From assembly GCA_021847605.1 (NCBI GenBank), contig JAJZQN010000017.1, positions 1 to 64,000 on the forward strand: a stretch of DNA of 64,000 nt. Direction: 5' to 3'. The DNA is from Pseudomonadota bacterium. GTDB taxonomy: Bacteria > Pseudomonadota > Alphaproteobacteria > Sphingomonadales > Sphingomonadaceae. The position numbers and the translations under genes were made by a program. Each line of letters starts with the position of its first letter. The first letter of the stretch is position 1. Below, one piece after another: positions 3,037-58,953 of the stretch. Below the pieces are notes generated by a model. That model did no database searches. It was not told where the DNA came from and saw only the letters and a list, made by a program, of their open reading frames with translations.

Positions 3037-4104
3037 ATGCGGAAGCTTGCCCTCGCGGCTGCTCTTGCGACAAGTGCCCTGGCTTCGCCGGCTTTGGCCC
3101 GTGATGACAGCTGGTATGTTGGCGTTGATGCCGGTGTGCTGCTGGTCGAAGACCAGAACATGACCTTCTCGCCCGCCACTGCGGCCGCCGTGCCTTCGGT
3201 GGATTACCACAAGGGTTATGATTTCGACGCCAACATCGGTTACGACTTCGGTGGCTTCCGCCTCGAAGCCGAAGCCGCTTACAAGCGTGCGAAGATCGAC
3301 CTCGACGAAACCGGCTTCGGCGGTGCTTCGTCGGCTCTCTCGTTCATGCTGAACGGCTTGCTGGACTTCGGTCCCGATGATGGCCTCCAGGGCTTCGTCG
3401 GCGGCGGTGTCGGCGTTTCGCGCGGCAAGGTTGCTTCGGACATCGTGAACGACAGCGACACCGGTTTCGCCTGGCAGGCGATCGCCGGCGTTCGTTACCC
3501 GGTCACCAACAATGTCGACGTTTCGTTGAAGTATCGCTTCTTCAACCAGGACGACATCGGTCTGATCCCGGCCTACGCCAGCGCCTATGGCCCGGCCGGT
3601 GCGGACGTCAGCACCAAGCTGCGTACGCACAGCCTGCTGCTCGGCCTGACCTACAACTTCGGCTCGGCTCCGGAAGCGGCTCCTCCGCCGCCCCCGCCGC
3701 CCCCGCCTCCGCCGCCCCCGCCGCCGCCCCCGCCGCCCCCGCCGGCGCCGGAATGCAGCCCCGGGCCGTACATTGTCTTCTTCGAATGGAACAAGTCGGA
3801 CATCACGCCTGATGCCGCCACCATTCTGGACAACGCGGTTTCGGCCTACAGCAACTGCGGCAGCGCCCAGGTTGTTCTGGCTGGCTATGCGGACCGTTCG
3901 GGTTCGGCCTCGTACAACGTTGGTCTGTCCCAGCGTCGCGCCGATGCCGTCAAGGCCTACATGGCTTCGAAGGGTATCGCTGATGGCGTGATGACGACCC
4001 AGGCGTTCGGTGAAGCGAACCCCCGCGTCGAAACCGCCGACGGTGTTCGCGAACTGCAGAACCGTCGCGTGGAAATCACCTACGGTCCGGGTTCGGGTCA
4101 GTAA
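3037..4104 (+). CDS. OmpA family outer-membrane protein
   Basis: A 355-residue envelope protein. Residues 1-22 form a signal peptide ending ASPALA. An eight-strand OmpA-type beta-barrel follows (about 25-210, beginning DDSWYVGVDAGVLL), then a run of 21 prolines (216-236), then a periplasmic OmpA/MotB peptidoglycan-binding domain (about 240-350) with the typical NVGLSQRRADAVKAYM and NRRVEI segments. The protein should anchor the outer membrane to the cell wall. The proline linker is encoded by near-repetitive CCG/CCC codons and may vary in length by slippage. Even codon use and a strong terminator directly downstream suggest an abundant single-gene transcript. Confidence 0.95.
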   Translation: MRKLALAAALATSALASPALARDDSWYVGVDAGVLLVEDQNMTFSPATAAAVPSVDYHKGYDFDANIGYDFGGFRLEAEAAYKRAKIDLDETGFGGASSALSFMLNGLLDFGPDDGLQGFVGGGVGVSRGKVASDIVNDSDTGFAWQAIAGVRYPVTNNVDVSLKYRFFNQDDIGLIPAYASAYGPAGADVSTKLRTHSLLLGLTYNFGSAPEAAPPPPPPPPPPPPPPPPPPPPPAPECSPGPYIVFFEWNKSDITPDAATILDNAVSAYSNCGSAQVVLAGYADRSGSASYNVGLSQRRADAVKAYMASKGIADGVMTTQAFGEANPRVETADGVRELQNRRVEITYGPGSGQ

Positions 4105-4728: not shown

Positions 4729-5565
4729 ATGCCAATCACTTTGCTATTTGCCGGTGCGGTTGCCGTCGAGGCGATATCATGCGGCCAGATACCGGGAGCG
4801 GATGCAATTTTGAATGACCGGGCGATCCGCTGGATTATTGTTGGAGAACGGCACGGTACGTCAGAAGCGCCTGAGATATTTGGGGATCTGGCATGTCTTG
4901 CCGCAATGCGCGGCAGGAAGCCGGTGGTAGCGGTTGAATTTCCCGTCGACGCTACCGATGCTATTCGCCAGTTCGTGACGTCGCCGGATGAAGTTGCTGC
5001 GAGGGATCAACTGCTTGCTCACCCATTCTGGCATGGACCGGTTCATGATGGACGGTCGAGCAGAGCCATGCTGACCCTGTTCGCAAGGTTGCGGCAATGG
5101 AAGCGATCCGACGTCATTGCAGATGTCGTAGCTTTCCAGCCAACGACGGCAGTGACCGGCGAGGCATATGAACAGGCCATGGCGTTCAATCTGGAGAGAA
5201 TGTCGGATGGTGAAAATCTGGTCGTAGCGCTGGTTGGCAATGTTCATGCGCAATTGAAGCGGCGGCAGTTTTCAGGTGGCTCATACTTGCCAATGGCAGG
5301 CTATCTTCCTCGCAGCCAGACGCTGTCTTACAACATTGGCGACAATGGCGGTGCGCAATGGGCCTGTTTTGCCGAGGCAACTGAAAAGAGCAGTATGCAA
5401 TGTGGATCGCGCGATACTGGTCCGGCAGCCCGCAAATATGAACGCGGCTTCGTGCATATCGGCGGTCAGGAAAGAGCCTATTCCGGCTATCTGAACCTTG
5501 GAACGGTGACTACGGCGTCAGAGCCGGCGTTGCCCGACCGCGATAATCATGAGCCGCGAAAATAG
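4729..5565 (+). CDS. Uncharacterised protein, possibly ChaN/EreA-like fold
   Basis: A 278-residue protein I cannot name with certainty. A hydrophobic N-terminus (MPITLLFAGAVAVEAISCG) suggests export. The next segment, IIVGERHGTSEAPEIF, and the later VVALVGNVHAQ resemble the paired His/Glu motifs of the ChaN haem-binding and erythromycin-esterase-like families, in which a GE-x-H near the start and a G-x-x-H later line a shared pocket. Middle region: KPVVAVEFPVD and a basic helix. The C-terminus contains Cys residues (WACFAEA, MQCGSRD). GC content and codon use (many A/T-ending codons) are visibly lower than in the neighbours, which hints at transfer or weaker selection. No operon partner is evident. 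Confidence 0.6.
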   Translation: MPITLLFAGAVAVEAISCGQIPGADAILNDRAIRWIIVGERHGTSEAPEIFGDLACLAAMRGRKPVVAVEFPVDATDAIRQFVTSPDEVAARDQLLAHPFWHGPVHDGRSSRAMLTLFARLRQWKRSDVIADVVAFQPTTAVTGEAYEQAMAFNLERMSDGENLVVALVGNVHAQLKRRQFSGGSYLPMAGYLPRSQTLSYNIGDNGGAQWACFAEATEKSSMQCGSRDTGPAARKYERGFVHIGGQERAYSGYLNLGTVTTASEPALPDRDNHEPRK

Positions 5566-5782
5566 CACCAGCTTTGACCTTGGGTGAAGCGGTCATCGGT
5601 TCCAAAAGATTGGCAATTTCCTGCGCCATCCAGTCTACCCATGGCTGCTGGAGCTGCCCCCGAAACGCTTCTTTTCGATAATGCAACGCATTGCCGGGGT
5701 GACAAATCCTTGCGGATGGGCAACAAACGGGGCGCTTTCGCGTTAGCGATCTATCCCTTTGCCCGTCACCGGAGCTGTTCCC

Positions 5783-53907: not shown

Positions 53908-53940
53908 TTAACCTTTGTCCTTCAGAAGTTTTTTGGTTAA
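53908..53940 (+). promoter_or_regulatory. Candidate CtrA half sites before ctrA
   Basis: TTAACC (53908-53913) and its inverse GGTTAA (53935-53940) flank a 21-base spacer. They match CtrA half-site sequence, but not the usual TTAA-N7-TTAA spacing. Autoregulation is plausible and unproven. Confidence 0.5.
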
Positions 53941-54001
53941 TAAATTTCTGCAGAAGCCGTTCTGGTGGGGTGAACGGACCTGCGACGCAAAGGGGCTTCA
54001 C

Positions 54002-54709
54002 ATGCGCGTGCTGCTGATTGAGGACGAACCGACAACCGCCAAGGCGATTGAGCTTATGCTCACGACCGAGGGGTTCAATGTCTATACGACGGACCTGGGT
54101 GAGGAAGGCCTCGATCTGGGCAAGCTGTATGATTATGACATCATCTGCCTGGACCTGAACCTGCCGGACATGCACGGCTATGACGTGCTGAAGAAGCTGC
54201 GCGCCGCCCGCGTGCAGACGCCGGTTCTGATCCTGTCGGGCATTTCGGAGATGGACAGCAAGGTCCGTTCCTTCGGATTTGGCGCCGACGATTATGTGAC
54301 GAAGCCCTTCCATCGCGAAGAACTCATCGCCCGCATCCATGCCGTGGTGCGCCGGTCGAAGGGGCATTCGCAATCGGTCATCCGCACCGGCAAGCTGTCC
54401 GTCAATCTGGATGCCAAGACGGTCGAAGTGGACGGCAACCGCGTCCACCTGACCGGCAAGGAATATGCGATGCTGGAACTGCTGTCGTTGCGTAAGGGCA
54501 CGACGCTGACCAAGGAAATGTTCCTGAACCATCTTTACGGCGGGATGGACGAGCCGGAACTCAAGATCATTGACGTCTTCATCTGCAAGCTGCGCAAGAA
54601 ACTGGCGCTGGCCTGCGGTGGCGACAATTATATCGAAACCGTCTGGGGCCGCGGCTATGTGCTGCGCGACCCGGAAGAAGCGCTGGAGACGCAGGCGAAG
54701 GTCGCCTGA
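54002..54709 (+). CDS. ctrA: Cell cycle response regulator CtrA
   Basis: A 235-residue OmpR-family response regulator and the master cell-cycle regulator of alphaproteobacteria. The receiver domain (1-118) has the acidic pocket [13 protein letters not shown], phosphorylation site Asp 51 in [16 protein letters not shown] and Lys in [12 protein letters not shown]. The winged-helix DNA-binding domain (about 125-225) reads [21 protein letters not shown] and [21 protein letters not shown] followed by [12 protein letters not shown], which is close to CtrA throughout. A hydrophobic-charged tail ends in QAKVA; the Ala-rich terminus is the degradation signal in Caulobacter. The ATG at 54002 starts the conserved receiver; the track adds 29 residues that belong to the leader. 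Confidence 0.97.
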
Positions 54710-54770: not shown

Positions 54771-54852
54771 GCGTTTTGCGTAATTTACATACCGGGTTAA
54801 TCGCTTCTTTACCAAATGGCCTCTAACTGGAGGCTTGAAGGAGACTTATTTG

Positions 54853-55461
54853 ATGGGCCATGCCCTTTCTCACAGTCATGATACGGCATGGGATGCCATT
54901 TGCCGCTCTCAGGCTGTGATCGAATTCACTCCTGACGGGACGATCGTGTGGGCCAATGACCTCTTTCTGCGTACCATGGGTTATGAACTGGAAGAGGTGA
55001 GGGGGCGGCATCATCGTCTTTTCTGCGAAGCGGCTTACGCTCAGTCTGCGCCCTATGCCAATTTCTGGGCAAAGCTGGCTCAGGGCCAATATGATGCCGG
55101 GGAATATTGTCGCCTGATGAAAACGGGCGGCCGTGTGTGGCTACAGGCTACGTACAATCCGGTTCTGGATGCTGACGGCCGCGTGTCCCGCATCCTGAAG
55201 ATCGCGGCGGACATCAGCCTGTCCTATCGTCTGAAAGACGAGTTGAAGGACAAGGTCGACGGCCTCATCGATATCGTCGATTCCATCGGCCTGATCGCAC
55301 GACAGACCAATTTGCTGGCACTCAACGCCTCCATTGAAGCGGCGCGGGCCGGGGATGCCGGGCGCGGCTTTGCCGTGGTAGCGGCCGAGGTCAAGAAGCT
55401 GGCCGACGATACCCGCAGCGCCACCGAACGCGCACGCGCCATGGTGATCAACGAGCTATGA
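54853..55461 (+). CDS. Mini chemoreceptor: PAS domain plus MCP tip
   Basis: A 202-residue cytoplasmic protein. Residues about 25-120 form one PAS domain ([23 protein letters not shown] then [20 protein letters not shown]). A short linker leads to only the tip of a methyl-accepting signalling hairpin, [20 protein letters not shown] followed by [17 protein letters not shown], about 55 residues; normal MCPs have about 250. No membrane segment or HAMP domain is present. The tip that contacts CheA/CheW is retained, so it could join arrays as an adaptor or sense redox/ligands in the cytoplasm. The ATG at 54853 follows AAGGAGA. The gene ends two bases before a hairpin. Confidence 0.88.
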
Positions 55462-55555: not shown

Positions 55556-56296
55556 TCAATTCTCCGTCTGGGTACGGGGAGCGGGGTCGGCTTCCGCCGT
55601 CGGAGCTTCATTCCTGCTGGCCTGACCCGAGGCTTCGCCCGAAATCTGACCGCTGGCATCGACCGACGCGATACCGTTCAGCGCGCCGGCGCCATTGCCC
55701 GCTGCGGTCCCGGCCGTACCAGCCGCATTGCCAGCAGCAGAGCGGGCCTGACCCACAGCATTGGCGGCCCGATCCCGTGTATTGCCCGCCGCCATGGTGG
55801 CGCGGTCACGGGCTGCGCCAGCCGCATTTTCGGCACGATCCCGGGTGGAGGCGACGGCATTGCCGGCCCGGTCACTGGTTGCGGCGACCGTGCTGCCGGC
55901 CCGGTCACGGGCAGCGCCAGCGGCGGTTCCGGCGCGGTCGCGGACATCACCGACAGCGTTGCGTGCATCATTGGTGCCCAGCGTGTCGACGGCTAGGTTG
56001 CCGCTGGCTGATCCGGATGCGTTCCCGCTGGCCTTGCGTTCAGCGCGGCTGGCGCGGCCAGAAGCGCGGCCATGGCCCGAACCGCCGGCACCGACCTGTC
56101 CATTTTCAAGGTCCATGCTGCGGCTGAGCGAACCGGCGCCACCCAGTGAACCGCCGATCGAACCGCCAAGGCCACCGAGCGAACCACCCAGAGCGCCGCC
56201 GCCAAGGCCGCCGCCACCGCCCAGCAACTGGGCCGAAGCAGGCGCAGCGCTCAGCGCGGTGAGGCAGGCTGCAGCGAGGATGATTTTGGCTTTCAT
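55556..56296 (-). CDS. Exported protein with 11-residue LEA-like repeats
   Basis: A 246-residue exported protein with a clear signal peptide (MKAKIILAAACLTALSAAPASA). A glycine-rich block (LLGGGGGLGGGALGG) follows. The middle (about 105-205) holds about seven to eight tandem units of 11 residues with the pattern DRAGNAxGxAR: DRAGTAAGAAR, DRAGSTVAATS, DRAGNAVASTR, DRAENAAGAAR, DRATMAAGNTR and DRAANAVGQAR. The 11-residue period with Ala/charged positions resembles group 3 LEA proteins, which form amphipathic helices on drying. The tail is acidic and Ser/Ala-rich. A sigma-type promoter motif shared with the neighbouring ECF locus lies 40 bases upstream. Confidence 0.8.
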   Translation of the reverse strand: MKAKIILAAACLTALSAAPASAQLLGGGGGLGGGALGGSLGGLGGSIGGSLGGAGSLSRSMDLENGQVGAGGSGHGRASGRASRAERKASGNASGSASGNLAVDTLGTNDARNAVGDVRDRAGTAAGAARDRAGSTVAATSDRAGNAVASTRDRAENAAGAARDRATMAAGNTRDRAANAVGQARSAAGNAAGTAGTAAGNGAGALNGIASVDASGQISGEASGQASRNEAPTAEADPAPRTQTEN

Positions 56297-56335: not shown

Positions 56336-56358
56336 AACGGGAGGCGGGTGCAGTTTCA
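56336..56358 (-). promoter_or_regulatory. Candidate ECF promoter of the repeat-protein gene
   Basis: On the minus strand the sequence reads TGAAAC-TGCACCCGCCTCC-CGTT, spacing 13. The same two boxes and the same spacing occur before the ECF sigma gene and before the S8 protease gene. The -10 box lies about 40 bases from the start codon. Confidence 0.6.
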
Positions 56359-56396
56359 TCCCGAACCCATGAAAAATTCATACAATATACTGAAAT

Positions 56397-57650
56397 TCAA
56401 TCTATATTTCTGCAATTGTCGCAGATGATGCCGGCGCCGTAGCCGCGTTTGCCGCCCTTCGGCTCAGCGGCCTCGCTCTTGAGGGCGTCGATCGAACCAC
56501 GGGTGAACAGCCGCCCGGCGACCAGCGGAGTGGCAAAGCTGGTGCCACGCACCGATGCCTTGCCGCCGTCCGCCGAGGCGGCCTTCATATCGGCGCCCGG
56601 CGCGGCGAAATCGACATGCAGCGCCCGTCCGGCTTCTGGCAGCAATCGGTCCCGGCCATCGACACCCGTCACCGCGATGACGCCGGGATAGGAGGCGGGG
56701 TAGGCGGGCGGCGCGGCCGGGCCATCATTGCCGACCGCCGCGACCAGCATCACGCCCCGTTCCCGCGCCAGCCGGATTGCACCGTCCAGCAGGGGATTGG
56801 CCGGTCCCACCAGACTGACGGTCACGACGCGCGCGCCGCGCCCGACCAGCCAGCCCAATGCTCGCGCAATGGCAAAGGCGCCACCGCCCGCCGGATCGTC
56901 GCCATAAACGTCGGCGGCCAGCAACGGCGCGCCGGGCGCGGCGCCGCGCACCATGCCGTTGCCGCTCAACAGAGAAGCAACCGCCGTGCCATGGCTGCTG
57001 GCGCGCGGTGCGCCGCTCGCAAAGCCGCGCTGCTCGATCGGGCCGGTGAGGGCAGGGTGCCGCGCTACGCCTCCGTCGATCAGGCCGATGGCTCGTCCGC
57101 TGACGGGTGCCCCAGTCGCCAGAGCTTCAGCGGAGAGAGCCATGGCGGAGCCGCTGGGAAAATAGAGATTGTCGGCGCTGACCTGTGCATCCGGCGCCAT
57201 CTTGCGTACCTCCCGCATCGCGCGGGCAAGGTTGCGGCCCCTGGGTATGGTCAGCCTGGCGACGCTGAGGTCGATACCCTCCACTTGCTCGCTCTCAACA
57301 CCGTAGCCTGCCTTGCGCAGCGTATCGAGAGCGGTGTCATCCGCCCCGCTCAACAGGATGACGCCCCGTCGGGCTGGCTGTCGCTGATCGTCCAGTTCGA
57401 TCCGGTCGCCATGTCGCCGCAGAAGTTCATCGATGCGCGCCGCGCGTGCGGCCGCCAGCCGACTGCCGAGGCGAGTGGGCGATAGCTGGTCCAGACCCGT
57501 CTGATCCACCACCCCGCCAACCCGGTTCAGGACATCGGGCACCACCTGCCCCAATGCACCCGGCGCTGGCAGCAACTGGGCCTGCGCGCCGGGAATGCCG
57601 CCGGCCATCAGGGCGATGCCGGCAAGGATATAGGCGCGGGTCAGCGGCAT
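56397..57650 (-). CDS. Exported S8 family serine peptidase
   Basis: A 417-residue subtilisin-type protease. A signal peptide ends GGIPGAQAQ. A propeptide-like region (about 30-180) precedes the catalytic domain. The triad is Asp in IGLIDGGVARHP (about 190), His in SSHGTAVASLLSGNG (about 219) and Ser in RGTSFATPLVAG (about 370); the oxyanion Asn sits in VAAVGNDGPAAP. The C-terminus ends in a Cys-x2-Cys (IICDNCRNID), unusual in S8 enzymes. The ATG at 57650 starts the signal peptide; upstream in-frame ATGs at 57689 and 57716 exist. It faces the ECF sigma gene across about 130 bases. It may degrade envelope proteins or process a sensor. Confidence 0.92.
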   Translation of the reverse strand: MPLTRAYILAGIALMAGGIPGAQAQLLPAPGALGQVVPDVLNRVGGVVDQTGLDQLSPTRLGSRLAAARAARIDELLRRHGDRIELDDQRQPARRGVILLSGADDTALDTLRKAGYGVESEQVEGIDLSVARLTIPRGRNLARAMREVRKMAPDAQVSADNLYFPSGSAMALSAEALATGAPVSGRAIGLIDGGVARHPALTGPIEQRGFASGAPRASSHGTAVASLLSGNGMVRGAAPGAPLLAADVYGDDPAGGGAFAIARALGWLVGRGARVVTVSLVGPANPLLDGAIRLARERGVMLVAAVGNDGPAAPPAYPASYPGVIAVTGVDGRDRLLPEAGRALHVDFAAPGADMKAASADGGKASVRGTSFATPLVAGRLFTRGSIDALKSEAAEPKGGKRGYGAGIICDNCRNID

Positions 57651-57725
57651 GATGGTCGGTTCGGTCCTTTCGGTTGCAAAATCATCCATGGCAGATTTAT
57701 TTCCGATGCTGTCCATTTTTCAGGA

Positions 57726-57748
57726 TGAAACGGCTGCGACTGCACGTT
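57726..57748 (+). promoter_or_regulatory. Candidate ECF promoter of the sigma/anti-sigma operon
   Basis: TGAAAC-GGCTGCGACTGCA-CGTT, spacing 13, ends 30 bases before the sigma start. Together with the opposite-strand promoter it forms the inverted repeat GGATGAAAC...GTTTCATCC. Confidence 0.65.
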
Positions 57749-57751
57749 TCA
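57729..57751 (-). promoter_or_regulatory. Candidate ECF promoter of the S8 protease gene
   Basis: Minus-strand TGAAAC-GTGCAGTCGCAGC-CGTT, spacing 13, overlaps the divergent promoter of the sigma gene almost completely, so both genes could be started from one DNA segment by the same sigma factor. Confidence 0.6.
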
Positions 57752-57778
57752 TCCCCGAACGGTGGAAATGGAGGCCCG

Positions 57779-58267
57779 ATGTCGTTCGAGCGTGATCTGC
57801 TTGCCCTGCTGCCAAGGTTGCGGCGTTTTGCCGCCAGCCTGTCGCGGGACCGCGCCGATGGCGACGATCTGTGCCAGGCGGCACTGGAGCGCGGCCTCAA
57901 GTCGCGGGACCAGTGGCAGCCGGGTACCCGCCTCGACAGCTGGATGTATCGGATCATGCGCAACCTGTGGATAGATGAGGCCCGCGCCCGGCAAAGGGCA
58001 GCCAGAACCTTCGCTCCCGAAGAGGCCGGGGAAGGCGTTGGCTATGCCGGGGATCGGGATGTGGAGGCGCATATGATGCTGTCCGACGTGGACCGGGCGA
58101 TGCAGGCGTTGCCCGATGAGCAGCGGGAGGCGATCGCCCTCGTGCTGGTGGAGGGGCTTTCGTACAAGGAAGCGGCCGCTGTGCTGGACATACCGATGGG
58201 CACGCTGACCTCGCGGCTTGTGCGGGGACGCGGTGCATTGATCGAACTGATGGGAGAGGCGGCATGA
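57779..58267 (+). CDS. ECF (group 4) RNA polymerase sigma factor
   Basis: A 162-residue extracytoplasmic-function sigma factor. Region 2 reads LLPRLRRFAASLSRDRADGD then LCQAALERGL and LDSWMYRIMRNLWIDEAR (the -10-recognition helix). Region 4 holds LPDEQREAIALVLVEGLSYK then EAAAVLDIPMGTLTSRLVRGR (the -35-binding helix-turn-helix). The ATG at 57779 follows GGAGGCCC; the track adds 35 residues that lie across the promoter. The stop overlaps the anti-sigma start (ATGA). It probably drives its own operon, the divergent S8 protease and the repeat-protein gene from TGAAAC-N13-CGTT promoters. Confidence 0.93.
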   Translation: MSFERDLLALLPRLRRFAASLSRDRADGDDLCQAALERGLKSRDQWQPGTRLDSWMYRIMRNLWIDEARARQRAARTFAPEEAGEGVGYAGDRDVEAHMMLSDVDRAMQALPDEQREAIALVLVEGLSYKEAAAVLDIPMGTLTSRLVRGRGALIELMGEAA

Positions 58268-58953
58268 ACCAGATTGATGAAGCCATGCTGATCGCGCTGG
58301 TCGATGGCGAACTGGATGAGGTGAACAGGCGCCGGGTGGAACGCGCCGTGGCGGATGACCCTGCGCTGGCGCAACGACTGGCGCAGCATCGGGCGATACG
58401 GGAAAGCCTGTCGGGCCATTATGCCCCGGTCGCCGAAGAGCCGGTACCCGATCGGTTCCGTGTGCTGCTGACGGAAAGCGAAGCCGTGGTGTCGGTGACG
58501 CGGCCGGTCCGCCGCTGGGGCGGTTGGGCAGTGGGCGGCGCCATCGCGGCCAGTCTGGTGCTGGGCCTGGCTGTGGGGCGCTTCTCAGGCGGCGAAGCCG
58601 GGCCGATCGGCATGCAGGGCGGAACGCTGGTGGCGCAGGGCGAACTGGCACGGGCGCTCGATGGGCAACTGGCCTCGGCTCAGGATGGCGCGACGGTCCG
58701 CATGGAATTGAGCTTTCGGCGTAAGGGCGGTGGCTGGTGCCGCAGCTTTGATGGTGCCGTTGCCGGTGTGGCCTGCCGGCAGGATGATGGCTGGCAGGTG
58801 CAACAGATACTCCCCGGCATGACGCAGGGCAGCGACTATCGGCAGGCCTCCTCTGCCGACGCTCGTCTGATGGCGACGGTCGATGCGCTGATCGATGGTG
58901 CGCCAGTCGATGCTGCTGCGGAGAGGGCGGCTCAGGCCAAAGGATGGCGCTGA
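58264..58953 (+). CDS. Membrane-anchored anti-sigma factor
   Basis: A 229-residue protein with an N-terminal cytoplasmic anti-sigma-like domain (MNQIDEAMLIALVDGELDEV and RRVERAVADDPALAQRLAQ). The HxxxCxxC zinc motif of ZAS domains is absent. One membrane helix (GWAVGGAIAASLVLGLAVG, about 87-105) crosses the inner membrane. The periplasmic part has a Cys pair (GGGWCRSFDGAVAGVACRQ) that may sense redox or folding. It should hold the sigma factor inactive until a periplasmic signal triggers release; the nearby S8 protease is a candidate part of that signalling, by inference. The ATGA overlap couples the two genes. Confidence 0.88.
   Translation: MNQIDEAMLIALVDGELDEVNRRRVERAVADDPALAQRLAQHRAIRESLSGHYAPVAEEPVPDRFRVLLTESEAVVSVTRPVRRWGGWAVGGAIAASLVLGLAVGRFSGGEAGPIGMQGGTLVAQGELARALDGQLASAQDGATVRMELSFRRKGGGWCRSFDGAVAGVACRQDDGWQVQQILPGMTQGSDYRQASSADARLMATVDALIDGAPVDAAAERAAQAKGWR

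Follow-up and report, generated by a model that had tools for sequence, protein, structure and literature searches.

Organization of the locus

The window, which is the whole 64,000-nucleotide stretch of DNA analysed here, contains a gene for an ECF sigma factor, a stress-response regulator (57779–58267, + strand). The 162-residue product has sigma2 and sigma4 domains only (Pfam PF04542, residues 9–73, and PF08281, residues 103–154), falls in the size class of ~160–200 residues, and matches NCBIfam TIGR02937 with 77.8 bits against a cutoff of 42.9. The stop of this gene is overlapped by the start of a second gene (58264–58953, + strand), for a predicted anti-sigma factor of 229 residues with one membrane segment predicted from hydropathy at approximately residues 87–105. 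Matches of this protein to NCBIfam anti-sigma models are weak and below cutoff, and a sub-threshold match to NepR is found in Pfam. Divergent from the sigma gene is the gene for an S8 (subtilisin-like) serine protease (PF00082; 56397–57716, − strand), whose true start is likely the ATG at 57650 (MPLTRAY...), which opens a signal peptide. The catalytic Asp, His, Asn and Ser are invariant in 79 of 79 orthologs.

The third gene (55556–56296, − strand) encodes an exported Gly/Ala-rich protein of 246 residues, in which a signal peptide is followed by AQLLGGGG and by 11-residue RDRA repeats. The original prediction described this gene as having 11-mer repeats and its product as LEA-like. The 11-residue period is clear in the window protein and in some Sphingobium relatives, but it is absent or weak in other genera and is not the conserved part; what the orthologs have in common is the signal peptide, AQ[LI]LGG and a Gly/Ala/Ser-rich sequence. 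No family match was found in Pfam or NCBIfam, including none to Pfam LEA. Between the Gly-rich gene and the gene for a CtrA response regulator (53915–54709) there is a short PAS and MCP-signalling protein of 208 residues with a partial MCP domain (54835–55461, + strand), which is recognisable in few related loci only (L024, L025 and L037).

A conserved palindrome between the sigma and protease genes

The three TGAAAC-N13-CGTT boxes that had been predicted were all recovered by a pattern scan of the window, with zero mismatches, at 56336–56358 (− strand), 57726–57748 (+ strand) and 57729–57751 (− strand). The last two lie within an inverted repeat between the sigma and protease genes, which is slightly longer than had been claimed: a perfect 32-bp repeat (57723–57754, both strands) with 10-bp arms and a 12-bp middle, GGATGAAACG-GCTGCGACTGCA-CGTTTCATCC. 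Taken alone, the short form TGAAAC-N13-CGTT is weakly specific and not rare genome-wide, with 11 exact genome matches versus 3 for a reversed-pattern control; when up to one mismatch is allowed, four matches are found in the window versus 2.4 expected, which is not above chance. When two further upstream bases are included (GATGAAAC-N13-CGTT), the only exact matches in the 4.26-Mb genome are these three sites, which lie within 1.4 kb.

That the element is beyond chance is indicated by comparison of 81 sigma loci. A promoter-blind protein similarity search with the sigma factor gave 80 loci (81 with the window), mostly from Sphingomonadales and including Sphingobium, Sphingomonas, Novosphingobium, Erythrobacter, Qipengyuania, Croceicoccus, Stakelama and other genera. 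All of the 80 related loci have the adjacent anti-sigma gene and the divergent S8 gene. The sequence GGAT[G/T]AAACG-N12-CGTTT[C/A]ATCC is located directly before the sigma gene, between it and the protease gene, at 81 of 81 loci, with small changes in two. The search pattern fixed most of the arm letters and permitted spacers of 9–13 bases, although the arm-to-arm spacer is exactly 12 in every case. The 69 distinct palindromes carry 69 distinct 12-bp spacers; the arms are near-invariant and the middle varies freely. Two of the palindromes (L087 and L088) are partly broken, with the protease-direction −35 altered and the sigma-direction boxes intact. The palindromic design appears, from the loci recovered, to have been kept across an order.

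Exact copies of the palindrome are also present beside sigma and S8 genes in three genomes from two further alphaproteobacterial families. The module of sigma, anti-sigma and S8 genes with its palindrome occurs on plasmids as well (L150, L180 and, in L151, the Novosphingobium conjugative plasmid p4). Since one of these plasmids is predicted to be conjugative, the module may move between strains.

One-directional sites and the promoter elements

The Gly-rich gene and its orthologs are preceded by a one-directional site, GGATKAAR-N14-CGTTnTC, which has the same spacing as the palindrome. In the window, this predicted promoter reads GGATGAA-N15-CGTT followed by GTC (56336–56361, − strand), and the gene starts 40 bases downstream. 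With GGATKAA and CGTT fixed, 77 distinct one-directional sites were collected, most of them before Gly-rich orthologs and some before other exported-looking proteins; a few loci deviate from the pattern, with variants such as GAATTAAAC or with 14-bp spacing. Outside palindromes, GGATKAA and CGTT in the loci set are separated by 15 bases 78 times, and by any other distance from 8 to 23 at most twice.

These sites separate the −35 from the −10 requirements. Only 39% of the 77 sites have C as the final base of TGAAAC, and the upstream GGA is kept. Because this C is dispensable, GGA is retained and the 15-bp spacing is non-random, the −35 element would be GGATKAA(R), placed N15 from CGTT. The original prediction of superimposed ECF promoters fits the comparative data, but its register is three bases off. 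In the revised register, the candidate promoter agrees with the usual ECF spacing and with the ECF26 pattern GGAATA-N15/16-CGTT, and the deduced −35 shares a single A with the AACG that is complementary to the opposite CGTT. By this consensus, the predicted sigma-direction promoter spans 57723–57748 (+ strand; −35 GGATGAA at 57723–57729, −10 CGTT at 57745–57748, N15 between them), and the predicted protease-direction promoter spans 57729–57754 (− strand; −35 GGATGAA at 57754–57748, N15, −10 CGTT at 57732–57729). A single element therefore carries complete promoter sequences on both strands.

The palindromes and the one-directional sites differ at defined positions. C9G10 is present in 69 of 69 palindromes versus 8 of 77 one-directional sites, and the right arm T[CA]ATCC in 67 of 69 versus none of 77. 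GGATKAA(R) and CGTT are maintained in the one-directional sites, with a preference for CGTTnTC, whereas the −10 of the palindrome is without the preferred TC at positions 28–29, so that both of its directions may be weaker. At position 5, most one-directional sites have T (62:13) and the palindrome arms have G (110:27). The shift is also seen when sites are paired within loci (43:1 on the sigma side and 44:0 on the protease side), with a nominal p of ~1e-12 that is inflated by kinship, since the loci are related and p-values overstate their independence, although the shift runs consistently one way. Position 28 of the one-directional sites is T, C or G and never A. If position 5 of the palindrome were T, position 28 in the −10 region of the opposing promoter would become A, which may be why G is found at position 5; the G looks like a trade-off between promoters that share the same bases.

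A probable pair of superimposed promoters for one sigma factor

We consider it highly probable that the palindrome comprises a complete promoter on each strand, the two being fully superimposed and used by the same ECF sigma factor. In each arm (GGATKAAACG), sigma domain 4 would recognise the first seven bases as the −35 for one direction; on the opposite strand the last four (AACG) read CGTT, the −10 that sigma domain 2 would recognise for the other direction. Sigma–RNA polymerase would then most likely occupy the palindrome in one orientation at a time, so that binding is mutually exclusive. One orientation would yield the sigma and anti-sigma factors, with autoregulation, and the other the exported S8 protease; the third, one-directional copy would drive the exported Gly-rich protein. 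Assuming a typical gap between −10 and start, which is ~9 bases at the protease promoter of S. meliloti, the start points are predicted just outside the repeat, ~34–38 bp apart. An envelope signal would presumably act through the membrane anti-sigma factor, with the protease either acting on the anti-sigma factor or serving as an effector.

Among other explanations, the one that survives best, though still improbable, is that only the sigma-direction promoter works and that the protease-direction match results from symmetry or merely aids polymerase recruitment. In L087, L088 and L151, where arms are slightly defective, only the protease direction suffers, as this explanation would allow. However, at almost every locus the protease-direction −35 is about as invariant as its counterpart, down to the G/T at position 5, and the corresponding S. 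meliloti protease, SMa0142, is a strong target of the distantly related sigma factor RpoE6 (PMC6180224).

The palindrome might instead be bound as an operator by a dimeric transcription factor, acting on both genes as a repressor or an activator, with the promoters located elsewhere; we regard this as slightly less probable again. A perfect dyad between divergent genes is what one would typically expect of an operator, and the arms here are invariant around a free spacer. A symmetric site would be expected at all target genes, but none of the 77 one-directional sites has the second arm, even though their GGATKAA and CGTT stay strictly 15 bp apart. The bases that are free in these sites (C9G10 and the outer arm) are exactly those that form the opposite-strand −10 and −35 in the palindrome, which fits superimposed promoters and not a repressor operator. 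An operator also offers no explanation for the position-5 trade-off, and relatives carry ECF26-type boxes, GGAATA-N15/16-CGTT, at the same intergenic position. Finally, a literal TGAAAC −35 with an unusually short 13-bp spacer would make a promoter class like that of Bacillus sigmaW but differently spaced. It has in its favour the three literal occurrences of TGAAAC-N13-CGTT, but is made very improbable by one-directional sites that do not require the final C and mostly have T at position 5, and by the poor genome-wide specificity of the short form.

Relatives and origin of the element

In a class-wide search and tree, the sigma factors with palindromes group as one lineage (with one or two label changes) adjoining relatives that include S. 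meliloti RpoE6, which belongs to the sister set and is 48.5% identical to the window sigma over 81% of the query. Outside the palindromic lineage, the GGAATA-N15/16-CGTT promoters are separate or single. At L194, L198, L199 and L201, which have a divergent protease, these boxes are back to back but separate; L186, L188, L191 and L195, at which no S8 gene was detected, have a box in the sigma direction only. S. meliloti has a single protease-direction box and no palindrome; RpoE6 is a member of group ECF26, and the mapped promoter of SMa0142 is GGAATA-N15-CGTT (PMC6180224). The mapped promoter of rpoE6 itself has RpoD/RpoH-like motifs, so no such box is used there (PMC6180224). Overexpression of RpoE6 raises both rpoE6-ecfR6 and the divergent protease SMa0142 (PMC6180224). 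Together with the gene pair found in relatives, this argues that the pair and its dual control came first; the fused element, whose −35 has changed, looks like the derived form.

Superimposed promoters of this kind suggest a fuller account, to which we give moderate confidence, in which the 32 bp act as a single, obligate two-way ECF promoter. The specificity of the sigma factor would have changed from GGAATA to GGATKAA, with the distance one base longer, in the lineage where the two promoters collapsed together so that the −35 region contains the −10 complement. The arrangement would then have been frozen across the order, with production of sigma and anti-sigma coupled to that of the protease because polymerase can bind in only one orientation at a time. 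In Sinorhizobium fredii (L181, ~3842–3873) and Aminobacter (L182, ~3849–3880), ECF26-type boxes are imperfectly superimposed between the sigma and S8 genes; these partly overlapping boxes, in a similar frame, are possibly intermediates, although the indication is weak.

Relationship to known promoter systems

The closest known system is S. meliloti RpoE6–EcfR6–SMa0142 of group ECF26, which likewise has an ECF sigma factor, a downstream membrane anti-sigma factor and a divergent serine protease, a GGA-type −35 and CGTT −10 at 15–16 bp spacing, and reported autoregulation and protease activation (PMC6180224). The adjacent, predicted membrane anti-sigma factor and the divergent protease (RpoE6 subtype; all 80 related loci) are features of this group, and CGTT agrees with its (C)GT −10. 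The −35 differs (GGATKAA instead of the GGAATA found in relatives), the distance from the first base of one box to that of the other is one base shorter in S. meliloti, and the superimposed palindrome is missing there.

Bidirectional sigma70 promoters share a symmetric −10 hexamer, with starts typically 18 bp apart (7–25 by definition), and often give noncoding RNA (Warman/Grainger, Nat Microbiol 2021; PMC10268837; PMC12825309). They resemble the palindrome in being single symmetric elements read by RNA polymerase in two orientations. Unlike them, each arm here would be shared by one −35 and the other −10, starts are expected ~34–38 bp apart, and the output on either side is a conserved coding gene. 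The expected start spacing lies outside the 7–25 bp calling range, so such sites may escape start-site surveys.

Promoters of the EcfG general stress response have the form GGAAC-N16/17-CGTT. The present sites are similar in being alphaproteobacterial ECF promoters with a CGTT −10. They differ in the −35, and the sigma factor is linked to a membrane anti-sigma factor and not to NepR/PhyR, despite the sub-threshold NepR match.

Bidirectional sigma70 promoters and ECF26 sigma factors with a divergent serine protease (PMC6180224) are thus already known. Our literature search found no superimposed or bidirectional ECF promoter sharing both boxes, so the fully superimposed form would be new relative to the literature searched; the central ECF classification paper lay outside that scope, and an earlier description may exist. 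The element would provide a natural, deeply conserved case in which selection for two coding outputs acts on promoter symmetry, and a test bed for polymerase competition on a single site. Because −35 and −10 are interleaved on opposite strands, point mutations should have predictable and separable effects in each direction.

Extent of the regulon

The comparative data fit a small local autoregulated regulon, as the original prediction had it, with regulation by the sigma factor probably direct; they define its likely promoter and target genes for a widespread sphingomonad sigma factor. In its own genome, the regulon looks confined to the three promoters. With up to one mismatch, the refined site matched there only before the Gly-rich gene and at two other places, about as often as the reversed-pattern control, and a larger regulon was rejected on this ground. 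Two candidates from the same genome were also set aside: a near-palindrome with the same spacing (C88:8251–8280) lies inside a virB4-like coding region and was taken as chance, and the gene start downstream of a match at C58:13503–13528 is not convincing. Across 40 Sphingobium genomes, extra GGATKAA-N15-CGTT matches are scattered or belong to one repeated sequence, which may be a stretch of conserved coding DNA.

Additional one-directional sites are present in other genera. In several Sphingomonas loci (L040, L048, L050, L051 and L053; ~5190–5240, + strand), an extra site follows the anti-sigma gene; the exported protein of ~270–310 residues behind it (AQQ...GAEYQTGDYGTG) is a possible extra regulon member. 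Erythrobacter-like and Novosphingobium-like loci (L073, L075, L078, L081 and L089; ~5650–5760, − strand) have a one-directional site before a conserved small exported protein (~115 residues, LYEEQ.AR.EE...PIAGI), which may be another.
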